A DNA stretch of 40,916 bases from an uncultured Acidobacteriota bacterium (lineage in GTDB: Bacteria > Acidobacteriota > Thermoanaerobaculia > Gp7-AA8): the NCBI GenBank assembly GCA_937870635.1, contig CALMZP010000167.1:1-40916 (forward strand), written 5' to 3'. Each line of letters opens with the position of its first letter. Positions within the stretch are counted from its first letter, which is position 1. Positions 1 to 34,295 of this stretch are shown here, one piece after another. The position numbers and the translations under genes were made by a program. The notes under the pieces are model-generated. The model searched no databases, was not told where the DNA came from, and saw only the letters and a program-made list of their open reading frames with translations.

Positions 1-19
1 CATCATCTCCCGTGGTGTA

Positions 20-125
20 CGTCATGGTGTCAGGTCTGGAAACACAACTTTTCTTCCAGAATCGCGGACTGTCGAACACCCATTCTCGGAAGAAAAGTTG
101 TGTTTCCAGACCTGACACCATGACG
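20..125. repeat. Perfect 38-bp inverted repeat, MITE/REP-like
   Basis: Positions 20-57 and 88-125 are exact reverse complements over 38 bp, separated by a 30-nt loop. The right arm ends 1 bp before the stop codon of the MATE gene that follows. No ORF of its own is present. The arm is not built from 7-bp units, so it differs from the other repeats in this window. The perfect arms suggest a recent or actively maintained element, such as a non-autonomous transposable element or a REP pair mobilised by a distant transposase; that is inference. It could also act as a terminator for the leftward MATE gene, although no T-run follows. Confidence 0.85.
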
Positions 126-126
126 T

Positions 127-6661: not shown

Positions 6662-6685
6662 GGCGGCGGGAGTGTATCAGTGCGG

Positions 6686-6765
6686 ATTTTGGATTTCAGA
6701 TTTTGGATTTTGGATTGCCCACCCGCCGGGCCTTGATCGTTGGATCCAAAATCCAAAATCCAAAT
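6686..6765. repeat. Inverted pair of ATTTTGG heptamer arrays (family D)
   Basis: The left arm is four and a half 7-bp units of ATTTTGG with one degenerate copy (6686-6716). The right arm is the complementary AATCCAA array (6743-6763). They fill most of the 107-bp argJ-ggt spacer and would form a stem of about 20 bp in the mRNA between the two genes. The same family occurs at 20781-20867. Confidence 0.9.
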
Positions 6766-10522: not shown

Positions 10523-11796
10523 TTCGATGCTCCTTCATGAAATGAGGTGGTGGTGGAGATCGGCGGTACGAACGCAGGTTCTCCCGCCCCCTTCACACCC
10601 AGGTCCCTCGCAACGCTCGGGATGACAGTGAGAACTTCGGACAGCGCGGCGATGAACTCCTTGAGCGCCTGCTTCGGAACGATGTAGGGCGGCAGGAGGC
10701 GGATGACCTTCTCCCGCGCGGTGCCGACGACGAAACCGCGCTCGAGCAACTGCGCCGCGACGGGCCCTGCCGGACGATCGAGCTCGATGCCCCACATCAG
10801 GCCTTTACCGCGAATGGCCACGATGTTGTCGCACGCGAGCTTCCGAAGCTCCGCTTCGAACCATTCGCCGGTCTCGTTGATCTTGCCGAGGAGCTTTTCA
10901 GTCTCGACCACGACCTCGTATCCGAGACGGCACGCCAGCGGATTGCCGCCGAACGTCGTCCCGTGATGGCCGGGCTTCACCATGCCTTCGAGCGCCGGCC
11001 CGGTGAGAACCGCGCCGAGCGGCAGGCCGCCGCCGAGAGGCTTGGCGAGCGTGACGATGTCGGGAACGACGCCGCTCCGCTGGAACGCGAAGAGAGTTCC
11101 GAGACGGCCGAGGCCGCACTGGATCTCGTCGAACACGAGGATGGCGCCGGTTTTATCGGCCACGCGCCGCGCTGCGATCAGGAATTCGTCACTGAGCGGG
11201 ATGATCCCACCCTCGCCCATGACGGGCTCGAGGAAGATCGCTGACGTTTCCGTCGTCACCGCGGCTTCGAGCGCAGCGATGTCATTTGGCTCGACGAAGG
11301 TCACGTTCGGGACGAGCGGCGCGAACGGAGTCCGATACGCCTCGTGTCCCGTGAGCGACAGCGCTCCGGCTGTCCGGCCGTGAAAACTCTCCTGCAGCGC
11401 GACGAGATGCGAGCGGCCGGGGTTGGCGAGCCGCGCGAACTTGATCGCCGCCTCGTTGGCTTCCGTCCCGCTGTTGCAGAAGAACGCCCGGCAGAGGCCC
11501 GACGCGCGCACGAGCTTCTCCGCGAGGATGCCCTGCGCCGGGTGGTAATAAAGATTCGAGACGTGCAGGAGCGACGTCGCTTCTTCACGAAGGACGCGCT
11601 TGATGCGCGGATGCTGATGGCCGAGGACGTTCACGGCGATGCCGCCGAGGAGGTCCCAGTACGCCTTGCCGGCAGCGTCGAACAGACGTGCGCCCTTGCC
11701 GCTCCGCGGATGAAACTGCGTGCGGTTGTACGTCCCCAGCACGAACGACTTCTCGCGCGCCACAACTGCCTCGGTTGATTCGTCATGCAGCAACAA
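10519..11796 (-). CDS. argD: Acetylornithine aminotransferase with repeat-derived C-terminal tail
   Basis: This class III PLP transaminase makes N-acetylornithine from N-acetylglutamate semialdehyde and glutamate; many homologues also serve lysine synthesis. PLP contacts are visible: the NSGTEANEAA loop, FDEIQCGLGR, and the Schiff-base lysine in LAKPLGGGLP. Start choice: a strong Shine-Dalgarno GGGAGGT sits seven bases before the TTG at 11796. A GTG at 11820 is also open but has no such site. The catalytic protein ends near ALSEVLT. The last 35 or so residues (VIPSVARDLGVKGAGEP and onward) are translated dispersed repeat, not family sequence. Confidence 0.94.
   Translation of the reverse strand: MLLHDESTEAVVAREKSFVLGTYNRTQFHPRSGKGARLFDAAGKAYWDLLGGIAVNVLGHQHPRIKRVLREEATSLLHVSNLYYHPAQGILAEKLVRASGLCRAFFCNSGTEANEAAIKFARLANPGRSHLVALQESFHGRTAGALSLTGHEAYRTPFAPLVPNVTFVEPNDIAALEAAVTTETSAIFLEPVMGEGGIIPLSDEFLIAARRVADKTGAILVFDEIQCGLGRLGTLFAFQRSGVVPDIVTLAKPLGGGLPLGAVLTGPALEGMVKPGHHGTTFGGNPLACRLGYEVVVETEKLLGKINETGEWFEAELRKLACDNIVAIRGKGLMWGIELDRPAGPVAAQLLERGFVVGTAREKVIRLLPPYIVPKQALKEFIAALSEVLTVIPSVARDLGVKGAGEPAFVPPISTTTSFHEGASK
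10560..10628. repeat. Family-A dispersed repeat inside the 3' end of argD
   Basis: On the minus strand this stretch begins with a GTCATCCCGAGCG...GCGAGGGAC unit, related to the arms at 14351 and 16760, and continues into a GC-rich tail. It is read in frame as the C-terminal tail of ArgD. Only one copy (no inverted partner) is present here. Confidence 0.65.
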
Positions 11797-14350: not shown

Positions 14351-14549
14351 ATCCCGAGCGAAGCGAGGGATCTCCGGAAGCACCGGCAGGATGAATGTCG
14401 GTAGCGCGAGGACAAGTGGAGCGCGGGCGACCCCGCCCGCGTGCTCGAGCCACAGGGGACACGGGCGAGGGTGCCCGCGCTCCACTGATCTTCGCCTGGG
14501 GGGCCACATCCTGCCGGTGGTACCGGAGATCCCTCGCTTCGCTCGGGAT
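14351..14549. repeat. Nested inverted repeat: family-A arms around family-B core
   Basis: The outer arms are 43 bp each (14351-14393 and 14507-14549), inverted with two mismatches, and carry CCCGAGCGAAGCGAGGGAT. The inner GC-rich pair TGGAGCGCGGGCGACCCC.../...GCCCGCGCTCCA spans 14416-14486. The whole can fold as a hairpin whose loop is another hairpin. It occupies most of the space between the small charged ORF and the 3' end of the MutS-like gene. Confidence 0.9.
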
Positions 14550-14568
14550 GTTCGGCGCTGTTGGCGCC

Positions 14569-16338
14569 TCACACCTCGATCCCGACCGACCTCATCAGCT
14601 CCAGGGCGTTGCTCTTCTGCACCACGCCCTCGCGCATCCGGTAATCGAAGAGCATCTTCCCGTTCTCGATGTGGTCTTCGAAGTGAACGTTCGCCGCGTG
14701 CGAGCCGATCACCGCGACGATCTCGGCGAGAGCGAGATCATGCGTGCTCACCAGGCCGATCCCGCCTGATTCGACCAGCCTGCGGATGACGGCGCCCGCT
14801 CCGATTCGCCTGTCGTGCGAATTCGTTCCGTGAAGAATCTCGTCGAGAAGGAAGAGGAGAGGCTTTTCTTCGCGGCCGAGGTCGAGGATCTGACGGATGC
14901 GGAGAATCTCAGCGTAGAAGCGGGAGCTTCCTTCCTGGATCGAATCGTTGATGCGGATCGACGCGCCGATGTTCATCGGCGTAATCCGAAGCGATTTCGC
15001 GCAGACCGGCGCTCCGGCAAATGAAAGGACCGCGGCGACACCGGTGCTCCTCAGGAACGTGCTCTTGCCCGACATGTTCGAGCCGCTGATGATGAGCAGC
15101 CGCAGGGTCGGGTCGAGGCGCAGGTCATTGGCGATGCGCCGTGACGCAGGAATGAGCGGATGCCCGAGCTCGGCCGCTTCAAATCGTGGAGCGCCCTCTT
15201 CGATCACAGGCATCGCAAAGGAAGGATTCTCGTAGGCGAAGGATGCCAGCGAGGACAGTGCTTCGAGCTCTGCGATGCTGTCGATCCATTGCCGGAGCGC
15301 CGCGCCGTTGCGACGGCGCCAGCGTTCGATGAGGACGGCGAGGTTGGACGACCACAGGAGCAGCATTCCGATGGGCGCAAAGAACTGATTGCGCCGCGCG
15401 TCGAGGAGACTGACCAGCTTCTGGAGCCCCTCGATTTCGCGCGCGGCATCGCCGCCGATCCGTTCCACGACGGCGCGCAGCCGCGGCGATTCGAAGCTGC
15501 GGCCATCCGTGACGCGCAGGATCCGCGCGAGCTGGCCGAGTGCCGGTTCCGCGCGCTCGACCCCTGCCACGACGGCGGTGGTCCGATCGCCGAGTGTTCG
15601 AGCGAATGCCGCCTGCAATCCGAGGACGATGAGCAGTCCCCACGCGGGCACCAGGCTCGGCCCGAGGAGCAGCAGGGGGCGGGCGGCGAGAAAAACGACG
15701 GTGAGCGTAATGAGGGGAAGGACGATCGCGACGATGCGCTCCCACGCGGCGAAACGTACCGGCTCGGCCGCGGTCCACTGTGCGATCTGCTGCTCTTCGA
15801 GTCCGGCGGTCGCTTCGCCGGCCACGACGGCCATCTCTTCGCGAAAATCGACATGATCGCGAAGCTCGGTCACCGCCTGCTGCCGCGCGACGACTTCCGC
15901 TACCTCGTGTGCGGGGTCGCTCATCCACCGTGCGAGCTTCGACTGGCCGGACGCGGTCGCGGCGCGGCAGATCATCTCGAAGAGCGAGCCGTGTCCGAAC
16001 ACATCGAGGTCGGACGCGTACGGATGATGGTCGTCGCGGAAGCGATCGCCCGACAGTCCTTTCCCGGGCCAGGTCCCTTCGATCCGCTCGATTCCCCCCT
16101 GGTAGAACCGGGCCCCGCGCTCGGCGCGCTCGCGCCGCCGGATCGTGCGGTCGTGAAGAAAGACGAGGGCGAAGAACGCGGCGGTGAAGGCCGCGGTCAG
16201 CAGCCAGATCGTCGCGGTCGCGGCGAGAATGGCCGCGGCGATGGCGGCGAGCCGCCCGAGGGACATTCTCTTCTCGGCGCCGCGCAGGCGGAGGGCGTCG
16301 GCGAGCCGGGCTTCGTGGCGCTCGTGGTAGACGGTCAC
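14569..16338 (-). CDS. Membrane-anchored MutS-family ATPase
   Basis: The C-terminal half is a MutS-type ATPase: Walker A GSNMSGKST (Lys about residue 425), Walker B LLFLLDEILHGTNSHDR and a STHD switch. The N-terminal half lacks mismatch-recognition and connector domains. It instead has two hydrophobic helices near residues 25-55 and two more near 205-245. This layout belongs to a MutS-like subgroup common in Acidobacteriota and Bacteroidota, whose function is not established; canonical mismatch repair is unlikely. A GTG at 16338 gives the usual short basic N-terminus; ATGs at 16359 and 16368 would overlap the divergent gene. It does not look part of the arg operon. Confidence 0.85.
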   Translation of the reverse strand: MTVYHERHEARLADALRLRGAEKRMSLGRLAAIAAAILAATATIWLLTAAFTAAFFALVFLHDRTIRRRERAERGARFYQGGIERIEGTWPGKGLSGDRFRDDHHPYASDLDVFGHGSLFEMICRAATASGQSKLARWMSDPAHEVAEVVARQQAVTELRDHVDFREEMAVVAGEATAGLEEQQIAQWTAAEPVRFAAWERIVAIVLPLITLTVVFLAARPLLLLGPSLVPAWGLLIVLGLQAAFARTLGDRTTAVVAGVERAEPALGQLARILRVTDGRSFESPRLRAVVERIGGDAAREIEGLQKLVSLLDARRNQFFAPIGMLLLWSSNLAVLIERWRRRNGAALRQWIDSIAELEALSSLASFAYENPSFAMPVIEEGAPRFEAAELGHPLIPASRRIANDLRLDPTLRLLIISGSNMSGKSTFLRSTGVAAVLSFAGAPVCAKSLRITPMNIGASIRINDSIQEGSSRFYAEILRIRQILDLGREEKPLLFLLDEILHGTNSHDRRIGAGAVIRRLVESGGIGLVSTHDLALAEIVAVIGSHAANVHFEDHIENGKMLFDYRMREGVVQKSNALELMRSVGIEV

Positions 16339-16357
16339 GGGGAGGGATAATACGGCC

Positions 16358-16804
16358 ATGCAGAACATTCAGGTTCTCTTCGCCGACTATGCGTCGTATC
16401 ACCAGACGAAGGGGAACAAGTGGTTCCACCGTTTCGGCATCCCGATGATCATGCTGACTCTGATCGGCATGCTGGTCCGAGTAAAGGTCGGGCCGGTCGA
16501 CGCGGCGATGATTCTCATCGCGCTCGCGTCGGTGTACTACCTCGCGCTCGAGTGGAAGCTGGGTCTGGCGATGATTGCGGTGTCAGTGGCGATGTATCTC
16601 GCCGGCGCGGCGCTCCCCATGGCCGTCAACGTCGCCCTCTTCATCCTCGGCTGGATCCTGCAGTTCATCGGGCACAGCGTGTACGAGAAGAAGCAGCCGG
16701 CGTTCTTCCGCAACTTCGTCCATCTGCTGGTGGGACCGTTGTGGATTTTGAACGATCTCATCCCGAGCGGAGCGAGGGATCTGCGGAAGCACCGGCAGGG
16801 TTGA
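16358..16804 (+). CDS. DUF962/Mpo1-like membrane protein
   Basis: This small membrane protein (148 residues) has the DUF962 signature: YxxxHxxxxNKWFHRFGIP at residues 11-29 and HSVYEKKQPA near 106. The yeast member Mpo1 is an iron-dependent dioxygenase in fatty acid alpha-oxidation, so the conserved histidines probably bind iron; bacterial roles are largely untested. Three to four helices are visible. A GGGAGGG Shine-Dalgarno precedes the ATG at 16358. The final 14 or so residues (IPSGARDLRKHRQG) and the stop are translated from the dispersed family-A repeat, so the native C-terminus ended near WILNDL. Confidence 0.88.
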   Translation: MQNIQVLFADYASYHQTKGNKWFHRFGIPMIMLTLIGMLVRVKVGPVDAAMILIALASVYYLALEWKLGLAMIAVSVAMYLAGAALPMAVNVALFILGWILQFIGHSVYEKKQPAFFRNFVHLLVGPLWILNDLIPSGARDLRKHRQG

Positions 16805-16954
16805 TGTTGAGTCCGAAGAGCCGGTGAGCAGGCATTCAACATTGAACATTCAACATTTCCGTCTCCTCTGGGAAAGCATAGGAATGTTCAATGTTGAATG
16901 TTCAATGTTGAATGCCTGCCGGTGGTACCGGAGATCCCTCGCTTCGCTCGGGAT
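16760..16954. repeat. Nested inverted repeat: family-A arms around ATTCAAC heptamer arms
   Basis: Outer arms at 16760-16800 and 16914-16954 are the family-A unit in inverted orientation. Inside them, 16834-16857 is ATTCAAC/ATTGAAC alternating at a 7-bp period, and 16883-16913 is the complementary AATGTTC/AATGTTG array with one extra unit. The left outer arm is read as the C-terminus of the DUF962 protein. The right arm ends 11 bp before the stop of the glutaredoxin gene. No other gene fits in 16805-16965. Confidence 0.92.
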
Positions 16955-20768: not shown

Positions 20769-20780
20769 GGCGATGAGACG

Positions 20781-20867
20781 ATTTTGGATTTTGGATTTTG
20801 GATTTTGGATTGTCCAGACAGTCCGATTTTCGAGCTAATCCAAAATCCAAAATCCAAAATCTAAAAT
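20781..20867. repeat. Inverted pair of ATTTTGG heptamer arrays (family D) at the treS start
   Basis: Four ATTTTGG units (20781-20808, plus ATT) face four AATCCAA units (20837-20864) across a 25-nt loop. The right arm runs directly into the treS initiation codon at 20866, so it occupies the position where a Shine-Dalgarno would normally be. A related pair lies at 6686-6765. Confidence 0.93.
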
Positions 20868-24120: not shown

Positions 24121-24320
24121 TGCGATTCGCCGTGATCGTGCTTCTGCTGGCGGCATGCACCTCGACTGCCGAGCTGCCGCTCGATACTCCCTTCGCTCTG
24201 AAGCACGGCGAAACCAGAGGCCCTGTGACATTCGTCGACTTCAGCGACAGCCGCTGCCCGAGGAATGCCGTCTGCGTGGGCTACCCTCGCCACGGTGAAC
24301 GGTTAACGGTGAACGGTTAA
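24117..24320 (+). pseudogene. Truncated lipoprotein gene ending in a heptamer repeat
   Basis: The ATG at 24117 overlaps the treS-mak stop. The 67-residue product starts with a lipoprotein signal peptide (LLLAAC lipobox). It then has a fragment of a small beta-sandwich-type domain whose usual ending is a DSRCPxxxxCVWAG stretch; here it reads FSDSRCPRNAVCV. After that valine the sequence switches to repeat-derived RHGERLTVNG and stops at a TAA inside the GGTTAAC array. Homologues as I know them continue for about 50 or more residues. It is probably a remnant left by a repeat-associated deletion, though a short lipoprotein may still be made. Confidence 0.6.
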
Positions 24321-24321
24321 C
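24294..24321. repeat. Four GGTGAAC/GGTTAAC heptamers at a convergent gene junction (family C)
   Basis: GGTGAAC-GGTTAAC-GGTGAAC-GGTTAAC occupies 24294-24321 with a perfect 7-bp period. GTTAAC is palindromic and contains TAA on both strands. It supplies the stop codons of both the truncated lipoprotein gene (+) and the RDD gene (-), whose ends overlap here. Confidence 0.95.
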
Positions 24322-24989
24322 GTCGAGCATTCGGGACAGATCGCCGCGGCGATTCCGATCCCTGTCGCCACGAGAGCGAGCCAGAGCAGCATCATCGCGG
24401 CGCGGACGCCTTTCGACATGGGCATGTTGAGAACGACGGTGCCGGCCACCGCGTCGCCGAAGCGTTGACGGCGCTGGGAGAACGTGGCGGTGAGGAATCC
24501 GACGAGGTACAGCGCCAGGCCGTCGACGATGCGCAGTGCGTTGCGGATGATCGCCGCGAGAAAGCGGCCGCGCTCTCCGTCGCCGCGCACCTGCAGGCCC
24601 ATCACGGCTTTGCCGAGAGTCGTGCCGAAACCGGCTTCGAAGATGACGTGGTAGAGGAATACGGCGGTCACCGCTACGAGGCCGGCCAGCACGCCCGTGA
24701 CGAGATCGGACGGGCGCGGGGAGTCCGCTTTCCCGTAGTCGACTAGCGCCGCCGCGCCGATGAGAAGGAACGCGGCCACGACGACGCGGTCAAACGCCAG
24801 AGCGAGCATGCGGTCGCCGACAGAGCTGAATGATTCGGTCGGTGCCAGGGGACGGCCAGGGCGCTGGGGTCGCGCCGGCGCGCCGGCGGCCACGCGAGCG
24901 GCCGCATCGATCGGCGGGATCGACTTCTTGCACGAAGCGCACTGGAGGGGAGTGCCATCGTTCTTGACGCCGCAGTGTGGACAGAACAT
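24303..24989 (-). CDS. Zinc-ribbon RDD-family membrane protein
   Basis: A 228-residue protein. It has an N-terminal zinc ribbon (CPHCG at 3-7, CASC near 19-22), a proline-rich linker and an RDD domain of three to four helices (the name comes from conserved Arg-Asp-Asp; here AFDR and GKAVMGLQV are visible). A last helix follows, then CPEC near the C-terminus. RDD proteins are membrane proteins of mostly unknown function, some linked to Na+/H+ exchange. The ATG at 24989 places the zinc ribbon at the N-terminus as in relatives. The last residues TLTVHR come from the heptamer repeat. It is divergent from malQ; the much longer frame to 25988 is antisense to malQ and rejected. Confidence 0.82.
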   Translation of the reverse strand: MFCPHCGVKNDGTPLQCASCKKSIPPIDAAARVAAGAPARPQRPGRPLAPTESFSSVGDRMLALAFDRVVVAAFLLIGAAALVDYGKADSPRPSDLVTGVLAGLVAVTAVFLYHVIFEAGFGTTLGKAVMGLQVRGDGERGRFLAAIIRNALRIVDGLALYLVGFLTATFSQRRQRFGDAVAGTVVLNMPMSKGVRAAMMLLWLALVATGIGIAAAICPECSTLTVHR

Positions 24990-27008: not shown

Positions 27009-29466
27009 GAAAAACGACGAACAGACGAAGGGCGCGGCCCGGGACGGGAGATTCGACCTTCGACCTTCGGCCTTCGACCTTCGGGATCACAGCGGCGACA
27101 AGCCGCAAGCCGACGATCGCGTTTCGCCATTGCCGAAAACCGAGGAAGATACTCCCGCCGCAACGGGCCGGATGAAGAGCCGGAAGACCGCGAAACCGGC
27201 GGAAGTGGAGCCGCGGGCGATCCCGCCCGCCGTTCGATCGAGAAAACAGAAACCAGCGGGCGGATCGCCCGCGACTCCACTGGGACCGAAAAACGGCGCA
27301 GCCGCGAACCCCGAAGGTCGAAGGTCGAAGGTCGACGGCCGAATCAAGACCGAGGCCCCGACGGTGTCCGAATCGCCAAAGCCGGGAAAGAGAGCTGCCG
27401 CGAAGGTCGAAGGTCGAATCGACAAGAAAGGGGAAACCACCCCTTCACCCGACACGGTGGTCGAAGAACTCCAGAATGTCGGCGCCGATGTCGTCCCCAC
27501 GGTCGCAATCTCGGCCCTTCGCGAGCACACTGTCGATCAGGTGCAGCCGTCGGTGGAGAAAGGGGACAGCATCCTCAGCGACTGGGATCTCTACCTCTTC
27601 AACGAGGGAAGCCACCACAACCTGTGGGAAAAACTCGGTTCGCACATCGTCGAACGCGATGGTGTCGCCGGGACCAACTTTGCGGTGTGGGCTCCCAATG
27701 CCGAGCAGGTCAGCGTGATCGGCGACTTCAACGGATGGAATCCATCGAGTCACCGCCTCGAGCCGCGCGGGCACTCCGGAATCTGGGAGCGCTGGATTTC
27801 GCACGTGAGCAAGGGAACGATCTACAAGTACCACATCGTTTCGCGGCATCACGGATACCGGGTGGACAAAGCGGATCCGTTTGCCGTTCATCACGAGACG
27901 CCTCCTCGTACGGGATCGATCGTCTGGGATCTCGATTACGAATGGAACGATGAGGCGTGGATGACGAACCGGAAGTCGAAGAACTCCTTCGACTCGCCGA
28001 TGTCGATCTACGAAGTTCACCTCGGGTCGTGGCGTCACGCGGTGGACGGTGATCGCCCGCGCATGATGAGCTACCGCGAGATTGCGGAACCTCTCGCGCA
28101 CTATGCGCGCAAGATGAACTACACGCACGTCGAGCTGATGCCGGTCATGGAGCATCCGTTCGGCGGCTCATGGGGCTATCAATGCACGGGGTTCTTCGCG
28201 CCGACGAGCCGGCACGGCACGCCCCAGGACTTCAAACATCTCGTCGACGTCCTGCATCAGAACGGAATCGGAGTGATTCTGGACTGGGTGCCGTCGCACT
28301 TCCCTACCGACGAGCACGGTCTGGCGTATTTCGATGGAACGCATCTCTTCGAGCACGCGGATCCGCGCAAAGGTTTCCATCCTGACTGGGGAAGCCTGAT
28401 CTTCAACTACGGGCGCAACGAAGTCCGCTCGTTTCTTCTCAGCAGCGCTCTGTACTGGCTCGGCGAGTATCACGCCGACGGGCTGCGCGTCGACGCGGTC
28501 GCCTCGATGCTGTATCTGGATTATTCGCGCAAGCATGGCGAGTGGATTCCGAACGAGTTCGGCGGCCGCGAGAACATCGACGCGATCTCTTTCCTCCGGC
28601 GCCTCAACGAGGACGTCTACAAGGTTCACCCCGATGTACAGGTGATCGCCGAAGAATCGACCGCGTGGCCGATGGTATCGAGGCCGACTTACGTCGGTGG
28701 CCTCGGCTTCGGCATGAAGTGGGACATGGGGTGGATGCACGACACGCTGCGTTACTTTGCGCACGAGCCGATCCATCGCAAGTACCACCACAACGACCTC
28801 ACGTTCCGGATGATGTACGCCTTCACGGAGAACTTCGTGCTGCCGCTCTCGCACGACGAGGTCGTACACGGCAAGGGATCGCTGATCGGCAAGATGCCCG
28901 GCGACGAATGGCAGAAGTTCGCGAACCTCCGCCTGCTGTTTGCGCACATGTATTCGCAGCCCGGCAAGAAGCTCGTCTTCATGGGTGGAGACATCGGCCA
29001 GTACCGCGAGTGGAACCACGACATCTCGATCGACTGGCACCTCCTCGATTACCTGCCGCACTCCGCGTTGCAGCGCTGGGTCGAGGACCTCAACCGTACC
29101 TATCGCGACACGCCCGCGCTGCACGAGATCGACGTCTCTCCGGACGGGTTCGAGTGGATCGACTGCTGCGACAACGAACAGAGCATCGTCAGTCTTCTGC
29201 GACGCTCGCGATCGAACCCCGACCACGAAGTGATCGTGGTCCTGAACTTCACCCCCGTTCCGCGGCACAACTACCAGATCGGTGTGCCGCGCGGTGGTCG
29301 CTGGAAGGAAATCCTCAACAGCGATGCGCCGCTTTACGGCGGCAGCGGTCAGGGAAACCTCGGCGGCGTCGACGCGGCGCCGATCCCTCTGCATGGCCGG
29401 AGATGGTCCGTGAATCTCACTCTGCCTCCTCTGGGCGCGGTGTTCCTGGTGAATGAGCGTGAATAG
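26992..29466 (+). CDS. glgB: 1,4-alpha-glucan branching enzyme with repeat-rich N-terminal extension
   Basis: GlgB (GH13_9) creates alpha-1,6 branches in glycogen. CBM48 begins near residue 213 (FAVWAPNAEQVSVIGDFNGW) and the catalytic barrel follows: Asp501 in LRVDAVASMLYLDY, Glu554 in IAEESTAWP (spacing 53, as in the E. coli enzyme) and LSHDEVVHGK. The first 190 or so residues have no family counterpart. They are basic, rich in Pro, Lys, Arg and Gly, and partly translated from dispersed repeats (RFDLRPSAFDLRD, EPRAIPPAV, EGRRSKVDGR). The ATG at 26992 follows an AAGGGAG site. The frame stays open throughout, so the extension is probably made; internal initiation closer to the CBM cannot be excluded. 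Confidence 0.94.
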   Translation: MAGRGKKNDEQTKGAARDGRFDLRPSAFDLRDHSGDKPQADDRVSPLPKTEEDTPAATGRMKSRKTAKPAEVEPRAIPPAVRSRKQKPAGGSPATPLGPKNGAAANPEGRRSKVDGRIKTEAPTVSESPKPGKRAAAKVEGRIDKKGETTPSPDTVVEELQNVGADVVPTVAISALREHTVDQVQPSVEKGDSILSDWDLYLFNEGSHHNLWEKLGSHIVERDGVAGTNFAVWAPNAEQVSVIGDFNGWNPSSHRLEPRGHSGIWERWISHVSKGTIYKYHIVSRHHGYRVDKADPFAVHHETPPRTGSIVWDLDYEWNDEAWMTNRKSKNSFDSPMSIYEVHLGSWRHAVDGDRPRMMSYREIAEPLAHYARKMNYTHVELMPVMEHPFGGSWGYQCTGFFAPTSRHGTPQDFKHLVDVLHQNGIGVILDWVPSHFPTDEHGLAYFDGTHLFEHADPRKGFHPDWGSLIFNYGRNEVRSFLLSSALYWLGEYHADGLRVDAVASMLYLDYSRKHGEWIPNEFGGRENIDAISFLRRLNEDVYKVHPDVQVIAEESTAWPMVSRPTYVGGLGFGMKWDMGWMHDTLRYFAHEPIHRKYHHNDLTFRMMYAFTENFVLPLSHDEVVHGKGSLIGKMPGDEWQKFANLRLLFAHMYSQPGKKLVFMGGDIGQYREWNHDISIDWHLLDYLPHSALQRWVEDLNRTYRDTPALHEIDVSPDGFEWIDCCDNEQSIVSLLRRSRSNPDHEVIVVLNFTPVPRHNYQIGVPRGGRWKEILNSDAPLYGGSGQGNLGGVDAAPIPLHGRRWSVNLTLPPLGAVFLVNERE
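27052..27420. repeat. Nested inverted repeat inside glgB: TTCGACC heptamer arms around family-B core
   Basis: Four and a half TTCGACC units (27052-27084) face four or more GGTCGAA units (27311-27345), with a further partial GGTCGAA array at 27401-27420. Between the main arms, the GC-rich B unit occurs as an inverted pair (27205-27230 and 27256-27280). The whole lies within the N-terminal coding region of glgB and contains no in-frame stop. Confidence 0.92.
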
Positions 29467-31279: not shown

Positions 31280-34077
31280 CCATGTATCGAGTACCAGTCG
31301 CCACGTACCGTCTTCAGTTCAATGCCGGTTTCACGTTCGATCAGGCACGCGCGATCGCCTCGTACCTGGTCGAGCTGGGCATCACCGATCTCTACTCATC
31401 CCCGGTGCTGCGTGCGCGGACGGGGAGCATGCACGGTTACGACGTCGTCGACGCATCGGTCGTGAATCCCGAGCTGGGAGGAGAGGAACAGTTCGCCGGG
31501 CTCCAGGCGGAGCTTTCCCGGCTGAACCTCGGATTTCTTCTGGATATCGTCCCGAACCACATGGCCGCCAGTCCGGAGAACGGCTGGTGGGTCAGCGTTC
31601 TGGAGAACGGTCCGCACTCGCGCTTTTTCCAGTACTTCGACATCGACTGGAGCCCGGTGGTGACGAAGGACAAGGTAGTGAACAAGGTCGTCCTTCCCAT
31701 TCTCGGCAAGCCTTACGGTGACGCCGTGGAGAGCCAGGAAATCCAGCTTGCCTACGACGAAGGAGGCCTGCACTTCCGCTACTACGACCGCCGGCTGCCG
31801 TTGTCGCCGACGACCTATCTCCGCGTGATCCGCGAGTGCGTCGAAGCGTTGCCGCAGCATGGCGTGGCCATCGAGCTCCGTGAGATCGTGCATCCGAGCG
31901 GAGCCACCGATCTTCAGCCGCAATTCCTCAACAGCCGCTTCCTCAAGGAGACGCTGCGCCGCCTTTACGAACAGGAAGCGGCGTTTCGGCAGGCGCTGGA
32001 CGAAACGATCAGGCGGATCAACGGCGAGAATGGGAACACGGACAGCTTCAACATTCTCGACGAGCTTCTCGACGCGCAGTGGTACCGCCTAGCGTACTGG
32101 CGCATCGCCAGCGAGAAGATCAATTACCGCCGCTTCTTCGACGTGGCCGACCTCGTCGGCATCCGCGTCGAGAACCCGGAGGTCTTCGAAGCGCGGCACA
32201 AGCGCATCTTCCAGTTCGTCACCGACGGTCACGTGACGGGGCTGCGGATCGATCACATCGATGGCCTGTACGACCCGGTCGGTCATCTCCGAAAGCTGCA
32301 GATGCGGCTTGCCTCGGGCGAGCCCATGACCGCGACAGACTCGCAGGCAACGAAGACCGAAAAGCAATTCTACGTGGTCGTCGAGAAGATTCTCGCGAAG
32401 GACGAGGTCCTCCCGGGCGATTTCGCGGCCAGCGGCACGACCGGTTACGACTACCTCGACACGCTCAACGCGGTGTTCGTCGATCCGGCCGGCCTGCCCC
32501 GGCTCGACCGCTTCTACAGGAAGTTCACGGACATCGAAGAGTCGTTCGAGGACATCTGCTACACGCGGAAGAAGCAGGTCATCCAGGAGCTCTTCTCCGG
32601 GGAGATGCGCGCCCTCGGCAAGCGCCTCGGCGAACTGTCGATGCACGACCGCAACGCTCGGGACTTCGCTCCATCGGAACTGCTCGCCGCGCTCACCGAA
32701 ATCACCGCGTGCATGGGCGTGTACCGGACATACGTTCGTGATCTCACGCCGTCGCCGGCCGATGCCGAGTGCATCCGCGGCGCTGTACGCGAAGCGAGAA
32801 AGCGGGCCGGCACCTCGCTCGACGAACGTCTCTTCACGTTTCTGGAGCGGGTGCTCCTGATCGATCCGCCGTCGTACATCGCCGAGGAACGCGAACGATG
32901 GCAGGCCTTCGTCATGCGCTGGCAGCAGTTCACCGGCCGGGTCATGGCCAAGGGTGTCGAGGACACCTCCTTCTATATCTACAACCGGCTCGTCTCGCTC
33001 AACGAGGTGGGAGGTGAGCCTGGCCGCGGGCCGGACTTCGATCCCGTCGAAGAGTTCCACGCGCGGAACGAGCGAATCCAGCGCGACTGGCCCGACACGA
33101 TGAACGCAACCTCGACACATGACACGAAACGCAGCGAGGACATGCGCGCGCGGATCAGCGTTCTCTCGGAGATCCCTGACGTGTGGGAGCGCGAGGTGCG
33201 GCGCTGGACGGAAATGAACGCGCCCCTTCGCACCGGCCCGGCTCCCGATCCAAACGAGGAGCTTCTCCTCTACCAGACCATCCTCGGCATGTGGCCGGAC
33301 ATCGAGGAGGAATTCGACGACGTTCCCGACCGTCTGCGCGCCTATCTCGAGAAGGCATCCCGCGAAGCGAAGACCCACACGAGCTGGATCGCACCGAATC
33401 CGGAGTTCGAGAACGCGTATCTCCAGTACGCCACGAATGTCGTGCAGAGCGAAGAGTTCCGCCGCTCGATGCTACGCCTTCATCGGCGGGTCTCCTTTCA
33501 CGGCTATCTCAACGGACTGGCGCAGCTGGTGCTGAAGGTCGCATCGCCAGGTGCTCCTGACTTTTATCAGGGGACGGAGATCTGGGATTTCAGTCTCGTC
33601 GATCCCGACAACCGCAGGCCGGTCGACTTCGATCGCCGCCGGGCGATGCTCAAGAAGATCCGCGCGAGCGCGGAGCGAGGTTCGCTCGATCTTTCGACGA
33701 TGTTGCGGCGCATGTTCGACGGTCGCATCAAGCTGTTCGTGACCTGGAAGAGCCTCGACCTGCGAAAGCGCCGCGTCGAAGTCTTTCAGCGCGGCGAATA
33801 CACGCGCCTGCAGGCGGACTCGCCACATGTCGTGGCATTCGCGCGCGGAAGGGACGTCATGGTTGCCGCTCCGCGGCTGACGACCAGTCTGGTGAAGACC
33901 GGCGTACAGCCGATCGGCGATGTCTGGGGCGACGCCGCGATCGAAGGCGTCCCGGCCGGCTCGTGGAAGAACATCTTCACGGGAGACACGCTGCGGGTCG
34001 ATGGCCCGGCCAGGCTGGCGGATGTATTCGCGAAGTTCCCGGTGGCGATGCTGGAGAGGGTCGAGCCCGAGGCGTAG
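31276..34077 (+). CDS. treY: Maltooligosyl trehalose synthase
   Basis: TreY (GH13_26) isomerises the reducing-end linkage of maltodextrins from alpha-1,4 to alpha-1,1, giving the TreZ substrate. Family marks are the N-terminal TYRLQFNAGFTF, LDIVPNHMA, the nucleophile Asp326 in LRIDHIDGLYDP, Glu370 in VVVEKIL followed by GTTGYDYL, and the long helical insert. It is 933 residues, within the family range. Start is GTG 31276 (GTGA overlap with treZ) or ATG 31282. It ends at a repeat element immediately after its TAG. Confidence 0.96.
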   Translation: MTMYRVPVATYRLQFNAGFTFDQARAIASYLVELGITDLYSSPVLRARTGSMHGYDVVDASVVNPELGGEEQFAGLQAELSRLNLGFLLDIVPNHMAASPENGWWVSVLENGPHSRFFQYFDIDWSPVVTKDKVVNKVVLPILGKPYGDAVESQEIQLAYDEGGLHFRYYDRRLPLSPTTYLRVIRECVEALPQHGVAIELREIVHPSGATDLQPQFLNSRFLKETLRRLYEQEAAFRQALDETIRRINGENGNTDSFNILDELLDAQWYRLAYWRIASEKINYRRFFDVADLVGIRVENPEVFEARHKRIFQFVTDGHVTGLRIDHIDGLYDPVGHLRKLQMRLASGEPMTATDSQATKTEKQFYVVVEKILAKDEVLPGDFAASGTTGYDYLDTLNAVFVDPAGLPRLDRFYRKFTDIEESFEDICYTRKKQVIQELFSGEMRALGKRLGELSMHDRNARDFAPSELLAALTEITACMGVYRTYVRDLTPSPADAECIRGAVREARKRAGTSLDERLFTFLERVLLIDPPSYIAEERERWQAFVMRWQQFTGRVMAKGVEDTSFYIYNRLVSLNEVGGEPGRGPDFDPVEEFHARNERIQRDWPDTMNATSTHDTKRSEDMRARISVLSEIPDVWEREVRRWTEMNAPLRTGPAPDPNEELLLYQTILGMWPDIEEEFDDVPDRLRAYLEKASREAKTHTSWIAPNPEFENAYLQYATNVVQSEEFRRSMLRLHRRVSFHGYLNGLAQLVLKVASPGAPDFYQGTEIWDFSLVDPDNRRPVDFDRRRAMLKKIRASAERGSLDLSTMLRRMFDGRIKLFVTWKSLDLRKRRVEVFQRGEYTRLQADSPHVVAFARGRDVMVAAPRLTTSLVKTGVQPIGDVWGDAAIEGVPAGSWKNIFTGDTLRVDGPARLADVFAKFPVAMLERVEPEA

Positions 34078-34293
34078 CCGTTCACCGTTCACCGTTAACC
34101 GTTCACCGTTGGCGAACGCTCGTTCAAATCACGTCACCCTGAGCCGCGAAGACGGCGAAGGGTCTCAAGATGCGTAACCTGAGGTCCTTCGGCGTCTTCG
34201 CGCCTCAGGGTGACGTGGCCTGGTTTACGCTCCTGTCGGTTAACGGTTAACGGTTAACGGTTAACGGTTAACGGTTAACGGTTAACGGTTAAC
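34078..34293. repeat. Nested inverted repeat: GGTTAAC heptamer arms around a CACCCTGAG palindrome
   Basis: The left arm at 34078-34110 is four and a half CCGTTCA/CCGTTAA units. The right arm at 34238-34293 is eight perfect GGTTAAC units. Between them a 32-bp inverted repeat with two mismatches (34130-34161 and 34186-34217) carries CACGTCACCCTGAG and CGAAGACGGCGAAGG. This fills the entire gap between the convergent treY and malQ genes: it begins right after the treY stop and ends 2 bp before the malQ stop. It may serve as a bidirectional transcript end. Confidence 0.95.
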
Positions 34294-34295
34294 GG

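Follow-up and report, generated by a model that had tools for sequence, protein, structure and literature searches.

Why should two copies of an inverted repeat carry the same two differences between their arms? The question is raised by family A, a repeat found twice in the stretch of DNA analyzed here (the window; 40,916 nucleotides, contig C167:1-40916), which belongs to an acidobacterial genome (class Thermoanaerobaculia) of 4,523,169 bases in 171 contigs. The initial annotation held that the left and right arms are distinct by two changes shared by both pairs, and we confirmed the boxes concerned (AAGCA and TACCA) at the places given in Table 1. GGAAGCACCGGCAGG occurs at 14376-14390 and 16785-16799, and CCTGCCGGTGGTACC at 14510-14524 and 16915-16929. 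Read inwards, the left arm is ...CCGG-AAGCA-CCGGCAGG and the right arm is ...CCGG-TACCA-CCGGCAGG, i.e., the arms differ by A or T at the first position and by G or C at the third position of the box, identically in both window copies. Copy 2 contains two additional differences between its arms, namely G versus A in the GNA loop and CTGCGG versus CTCCGG.

Table 1. Positions of the family-A copies, neighboring genes, nested repeats, and Y1 transposase genes (window coordinates unless a contig is named).
Feature	Position	Strand	Remark
Copy 1, whole element	14351-14549		
Copy 1 left arm	14351-14390	+	box AAGCA, 14378-14382
Copy 1 left hairpin	14351-14371	+	ATCCC-GA-GC-GAA-GC-GA-GGGAT; predicted from consensus-arm fold and stem covariation
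Family B inverted repeat	14406-14495		GTGGAG-CGCGGGCGA type; nested in copy 1 spacer
Copy 1 right arm	14510-14549	-	box TACCA read inwards; TGGTA on + at 14518-14522
Copy 1 right hairpin	14529-14549	-	identical in sequence to left hairpin; predicted from sequence and consensus-arm fold
MutS-domain gene (PF00488/PF05192)	14569-16368	-	ends 19 bp from copy 1
Mpo1-like gene (PF06127)	16358-16804	+	last 12 codons and stop come from copy 2
Copy 2, whole element	16760-16954		
Copy 2 left arm	16760-16799	+	box AAGCA, 16787-16791
Inverted array of 7-nt units	16828-16919		ATTCAAC type; nested in copy 2 spacer; right array arm and start of right family-A arm overlap
Copy 2 right arm	16915-16954	-	box TACCA read inwards; TGGTA on + at 16923-16927
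Y1 transposase gene	C139:6620-7204		family B (GTGG-tagged, GTAG-like) on its flanks; this repeat is nested in copy 1
Y1 transposase gene	C170:23846-24841		has its own inverted repeat (~25-30 bp) on both sides; four miniature pairs occur elsewhere in the fetched stretches
Y1 transposase gene	C157:26059-27234		bounded by its own terminal inverted repeats

We searched the 4.52 Mb genome with the family-A arm core, CGAGCGNAGCGAGGGATCTNCGG, and obtained 145 matches with up to two mismatches and none with a reversed-pattern control. Arms were paired within fetched stretches picked around elements and Y1 genes, which total 720,283 of the 4,523,169 bases. Among the 127 arms that these stretches hold, neighbors formed 45 head-to-head, seven head-to-tail, and no tail-to-tail pairs; 37 arms had no partner under the hairpin-core pairing method. 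Predominantly head-to-head dimers with rare tail-to-tail pairs are a hallmark of the CGTC superfamily of REPs, and an inverted REP doublet forming a single hairpin, as found here, is that of REPINs. Family A is a REPIN-like, non-autonomous repeat in which two head-to-head REP arms enclose a variable spacer, with one left arm (box AAGCA) and one right arm (box TACCA or a relative). Direct repeats in the flanks of the 45 dimers, sought as the target-site duplications of classical DDE-transposase MITEs, were no commoner than in shuffled flanks. The terminal tag is mostly TTC or TTT, with T at position -3 in 65 of 90 arms and G in six; a GTAG-type tag is absent from these 90 arms, and a CGTC (or TGTC/CCTC) tag is not their terminal tag. 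Tandem copies of tag and hairpin, approximately 26-29 nt apart, were observed at C147:133911-133963, C36:1981-2010, and C110:42647-42676, an arrangement that suggests duplication of the GANTTC tag together with the hairpin.

The fold predicted for each arm as single-stranded DNA is ATCCC-GA-GC-GNA-GC-GA-GGGAT, followed by CT and then CCGG-box-CCGG. The predicted REP hairpin comprises five pairs with an AT foot, two G-A mismatches, two pairs, and a GNA triloop, while in the predicted CCGG-box-CCGG mini-hairpin AAGCA yields a five-base loop and TACCA closes one extra pair. Single-arm folds have weak z-scores (-0.7 to -1.2), and the complementary strand gives equivalent folds. Support for the arm-level hairpin comes from 41 arms of other phyla, not picked by the search pattern, in which the stem pairs are mostly Watson-Crick and C-G to T-A swaps preserve the pairing. 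For the whole dimer, the fold model predicts a hairpin of -61.6 kcal/mol in which the box forms two mismatches, compared to -66.5 to -68.5 kcal/mol for homotypic versions; in the consensus dimer, the outer stem is fully paired across 27 arm bases. An Rfam search at the locus returned nothing at the gathering score and sub-threshold matches to microRNA and small-nucleolar families.

The two kinds of box are combined within dimers far more often than shuffling produces. Forty head-to-head pairs contained recognizable boxes of the form WANCA; 31 joined AAGCA to a different box (19.6 expected), eight joined two non-AAGCA boxes, and one joined two AAGCA boxes. The five pairs left out of the 45 comprise two TGCAC/TGCAC, one TAACA/TGCAC, one AACCC/TACCG, and one AAGCA pair with the partner box one base out of register. 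Mixed pairs numbered 31 or more in 12 of 100,000 shuffles, and when arms were detected without the hairpin core, 33 of 41 pairs were mixed, a value reached by none of 100,000 shuffles; such shuffle tests ignore shared descent and are not probabilities. The core-free detection recovered five pairs missed earlier, all of them heterotypic, and missed the single AAGCA/AAGCA pair. The 113 boxes comprise TACCA (54), AAGCA (42), AACCA (9), TAACA (6), TATCA (1), and AATCA (1), with no TAGCA among them. We also examined whether the variants fall at random on either side, the outcome that the initial annotation had named as contrary to its claim. Of the 31 mixed pairs, 16 have AAGCA on the + side and 15 have the other box there; this split reflects insertion orientation only, and the conserved feature is one box of each kind per unit.

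Position-by-position comparison showed where the asymmetry sits. Across the 45 dimers, left/right differences exceeded those of shuffled arms only at box positions 1 and 3, and fell below them at a stem position, at box positions 2, 4, and 5, and at several following bases. Over 69 positions of the 31 mixed dimers, box positions 1 and 3 alone separated the arms (Fisher 2e-15 and 4e-18); these values are circular because the box itself serves to define the left arm, and what carries information is that no other difference exists. Positions beyond approximately 41, on the spacer side, are near-random, which indicates that the two-state box belongs with the conserved arm and not with the decaying spacer. 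Because the asymmetry extends across the genome and affects just two positions, the element acts like a unit with ends of two kinds. The earlier proposal of a defined left and right end is borne out as regards a real asymmetry, though no enzyme with these ends was found at the Y1 loci scanned.

The dimers are intergenic, mostly on the 3' side of genes, with 26 of the 45 between unidirectional, 15 between convergent, and four between divergent genes as assigned by a home-made codon-score gene caller, not a standard gene finder. We searched 17 family relatives besides the genome itself for the Mpo1-like gene; all 13 orthologues end differently from the window gene, without the element there. The arm core occurs in eight of the 17 family relatives (1-12 copies, at most one mismatch) and in none of 42 others, compared to 106 copies in this genome. 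Three relatives (G006, G007, and G014) contain arms with an AGTTT-like tag but different boxes. Other repeats are nested in both window copies; among those sampled, three of 36 family-B dimers, four of 43 single B arms, and ten of 34 ATTCAAC-type arrays lie inside family-A dimers, counts from which we claim no enrichment because sampling was centered on family A. By eye and in few cases, short dimers have the spacer motif GCCYAY toward the AAGCA arm and dimers carrying family B have it toward the other arm, indicating that left and right have no constant relation to the spacer.

The window also contains repeats of other kinds. Besides the array in copy 2, inverted arrays of 7-nt period are present at 6685-6721 with 20780-20867, at 24292-24335 with 34066-34295, and at 27050-27345, and four unrelated units (ATTCAAC, GATTTTG, GGTTAAC, and CGAAGGT types) make up the arrays. 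A lone TGTC-tagged arm of another family (...GCGAGGGACCTGGG) lies at 10600-10627 and has eight matches with up to three mismatches in the fetched stretches. A further inverted REP pair, with the stem CCCTGA...GAAGGG, spans 34130-34217.

The best reading of family A, to which we assign a probability of about one half, is that of a replicating unit with two different ends. What spreads would be the dimer rather than the single arm, moving as a single-stranded hairpin that some enzyme cuts and rejoins in trans. Efficient propagation would be limited to units with one end of each kind, which would preserve arm and box, whereas the spacer would be free to decay and take in other repeats. At the box, one strand's hairpin has A-A and G-G mismatches and the other strand's has T-T and C-C; these strand-specific mismatches, together with the different mini-hairpin loops, mean that the boxes could mark both end and strand. 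This reading is favored by the excess of mixed pairs under both detection methods, the restriction of left/right differences to two box positions, the predominance of head-to-head neighbors, the predicted hairpins of the dimer and of single arms, the orthologues of the Mpo1-like gene that lack the insert, and the persistence of both box states while spacers decayed. Dimers also showed no strand preference with respect to transcription (right arm first in nine, left arm first in seven; n = 16), which points to DNA and not to one transcribed strand. Against it stand the nine of 40 pairs that are not heterotypic, the variable placement of left and right relative to the spacer, the homotypic dimers of Luteimonas described below, and the lack of a cognate enzyme at the three resident Y1 genes and the 45 distinct Y1 loci scanned. 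The two-base box might even encode polarity for an enzyme mobilizing CGTC-type repeats and needing one end of each kind, but this is quite doubtful. If true, such a code would account for the recurrence of head-to-head heterodimers across phyla and would provide a bait for the missing transposase.

The main competitor is founder inheritance, whereby a palindrome that was nearly perfect apart from two substitutions served as the master copy and its asymmetry was inherited unselected. A founder dimer copied whole would also yield the observed asymmetry, so the enzymatic processing expected in the initial annotation does not follow from asymmetry alone. The absence of any other left/right difference fits such a founder, as do the near-invariance of the arms outside the box, the much lower abundance of the core in relatives, which may reflect a recent expansion, and the variation of the heterotypic state between genomes. 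However, both box states persist in dimers whose spacers have diverged almost to randomness, the right box drifts to TAACA, AACCA, and TATCA without reading TAGCA in any of the 113 boxes, and the orientation of the boxes relative to the spacer motif differs between subgroups. We consider founder inheritance possible but somewhat unlikely.

The search for a cognate enzyme centered on Y1 transposases. Profile PF01797 identified three such genes in the genome, and each is bounded by a different repeat, none of them family A. No family-A arm was found by an exact-motif scan of 33 Y1 loci or by a scan, allowing one mismatch, of 20 Y1 loci from relatives in the family, i.e., at none of 45 distinct loci (eight shared) from this genome and its relatives, a minority of all Y1 matches. 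In addition, two of the three Y1 proteins of this genome, used as tblastn queries against 46 loci of other phyla, gave no match at 1e-3. The TnpA-REP/RAYT flanked by the same ends that the initial annotation had suggested seeking was accordingly not encountered at the three resident genes or the 45 loci. The CGTC REP superfamily is likewise characterized by having no dedicated transposase, a likeness that for family A refers to Y1 transposases alone. Mobilization in trans by one of the resident enzymes is a sub-case of the two-ended unit, its likelihood being included in that given above, and seems unlikely: three Y1 transposases are present and one adjoins family B, which occurs inside family-A dimers, but each is bounded by its own repeat. 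The ends of the C170 and C157 genes recur elsewhere in the genome as miniature pairs of ~100 bp; one, an inverted pair at window positions 19-126, corresponds to the terminal inverted repeats of the C157 gene.

Mismatches might instead make the dimer less vulnerable to SbcCD and other hairpin nucleases, as suggested in PMC3733652. Heterotypic boxes do weaken the long hairpin in the fold model, but by ~5-8 kcal/mol, a small part of about -67; moreover, the outer stem remains paired over the 27 consensus arm bases, with mismatches not spread along the arm, and Luteimonas dimers are homotypic. We set this improbable explanation aside since the modeled effect is too small. An RNA-level role, in which the dimer acts in 3' untranslated regions and its asymmetry marks one RNA strand, would suit the 41 of 45 dimers between unidirectional or convergent genes but is highly improbable, given that the locus matched no Rfam family at gathering score and that the unbiased first-transcribed arm (genes from the home-made caller) speaks against a transcription-strand mark. 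The case is a clean one, since only two bases distinguish arms that are otherwise interchangeable; the predictions of founder effect, hairpin avoidance, and end recognition consequently diverge and can be tested.

Comparison with known repeat systems was based on published descriptions and on loci from other phyla. The y and z REPs of E. coli differ at more than two positions. They resemble family A in combining two REP types in one mosaic unit (BIME), as described in PMC8266576, and are unrelated to it in sequence. REPINs and BIMEs associated with RAYTs, as portrayed in Bertels and Rainey (2011; PMC3116915) and Corneloup et al. (2021; PMC8266576), share with family A an inverted REP doublet, a long hairpin, a less conserved spacer, and a mismatch-interrupted stem; in contrast, family A lacks the GTAG tag and yielded no cognate RAYT at the Y1 loci scanned. 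The genome also has two genes of the TIRYT/TIRtron kind, the TIR-bounded Y1 transposases of Acidobacteria outlined in PMC3733652, with miniature derivatives; family-A arms bear no relation to the ends of these genes.

At 46 loci from several other phyla, hairpins of the family-A type mostly carry a GTC tag. In each of the nine Thiosymbion dimers, one stem is of the ATTTC type and the other of the ATCCC type (4.8 expected; 227 of 20,000 shuffles, with shared descent ignored). Conversely, Luteimonas dimers with this hairpin differ in none of 20 stems and one of 20 loop bases (10.0 and 12.5 expected), showing that asymmetry is not generally required for this hairpin class. Among the 50 of 178 Reyranella dimers listed, no position showed an excess of heterotypic pairs and four showed a homotypic excess; among the 25 of 254 Vineibacter dimers listed, two spacer-side positions showed a heterotypic excess. 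Universal heterotypy of CGTC-type dimers, first suggested by a pattern search whose requirement for CGG on one arm biased it toward such pairs, is contradicted by Luteimonas. With Thiosymbion strictly heterotypic and Luteimonas homotypic, heterotypy is a property of particular lineages.

The portions consulted of PMC12306157, PMC6006769, PMC3116915, and PMC8266576 do not treat the asymmetry or its enzyme, and we recognized no paper on either for such REPs in the part of the later literature covered. Di Nocera et al. (2013; PMC3733652) defined GTAG- and CGTC-tagged REPs and found no transposase for CGTC REPs. The same paper put an excess of heterodimers in several REP families in print in 2013, with 'no obvious explanation'. 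Like family A, CGTC REPs are described there as short hairpins with an AT stem foot, mostly in head-to-head dimers, many of them heterodimers. Their stem has 8-9 bp starting with AT and a loop of 4-5; the predicted fold of family A has the AT foot, 5 bp, two G-A mismatches, 2 bp, and a GNA loop. The family-A tag is mostly TTC/TTT, with G at the second tag position in six of 90 arms, and its asymmetry lies in the box of a second mini-hairpin instead of the stem or loop of the REP hairpin. Family A is not strictly a CGTC REP, given its tag, nor a RAYT-REPIN, given the absence of a cognate enzyme and of GTAG; it is closest to the CGTC REPs, and its asymmetry is a recurring kind of heterodimer already reported in PMC3733652.
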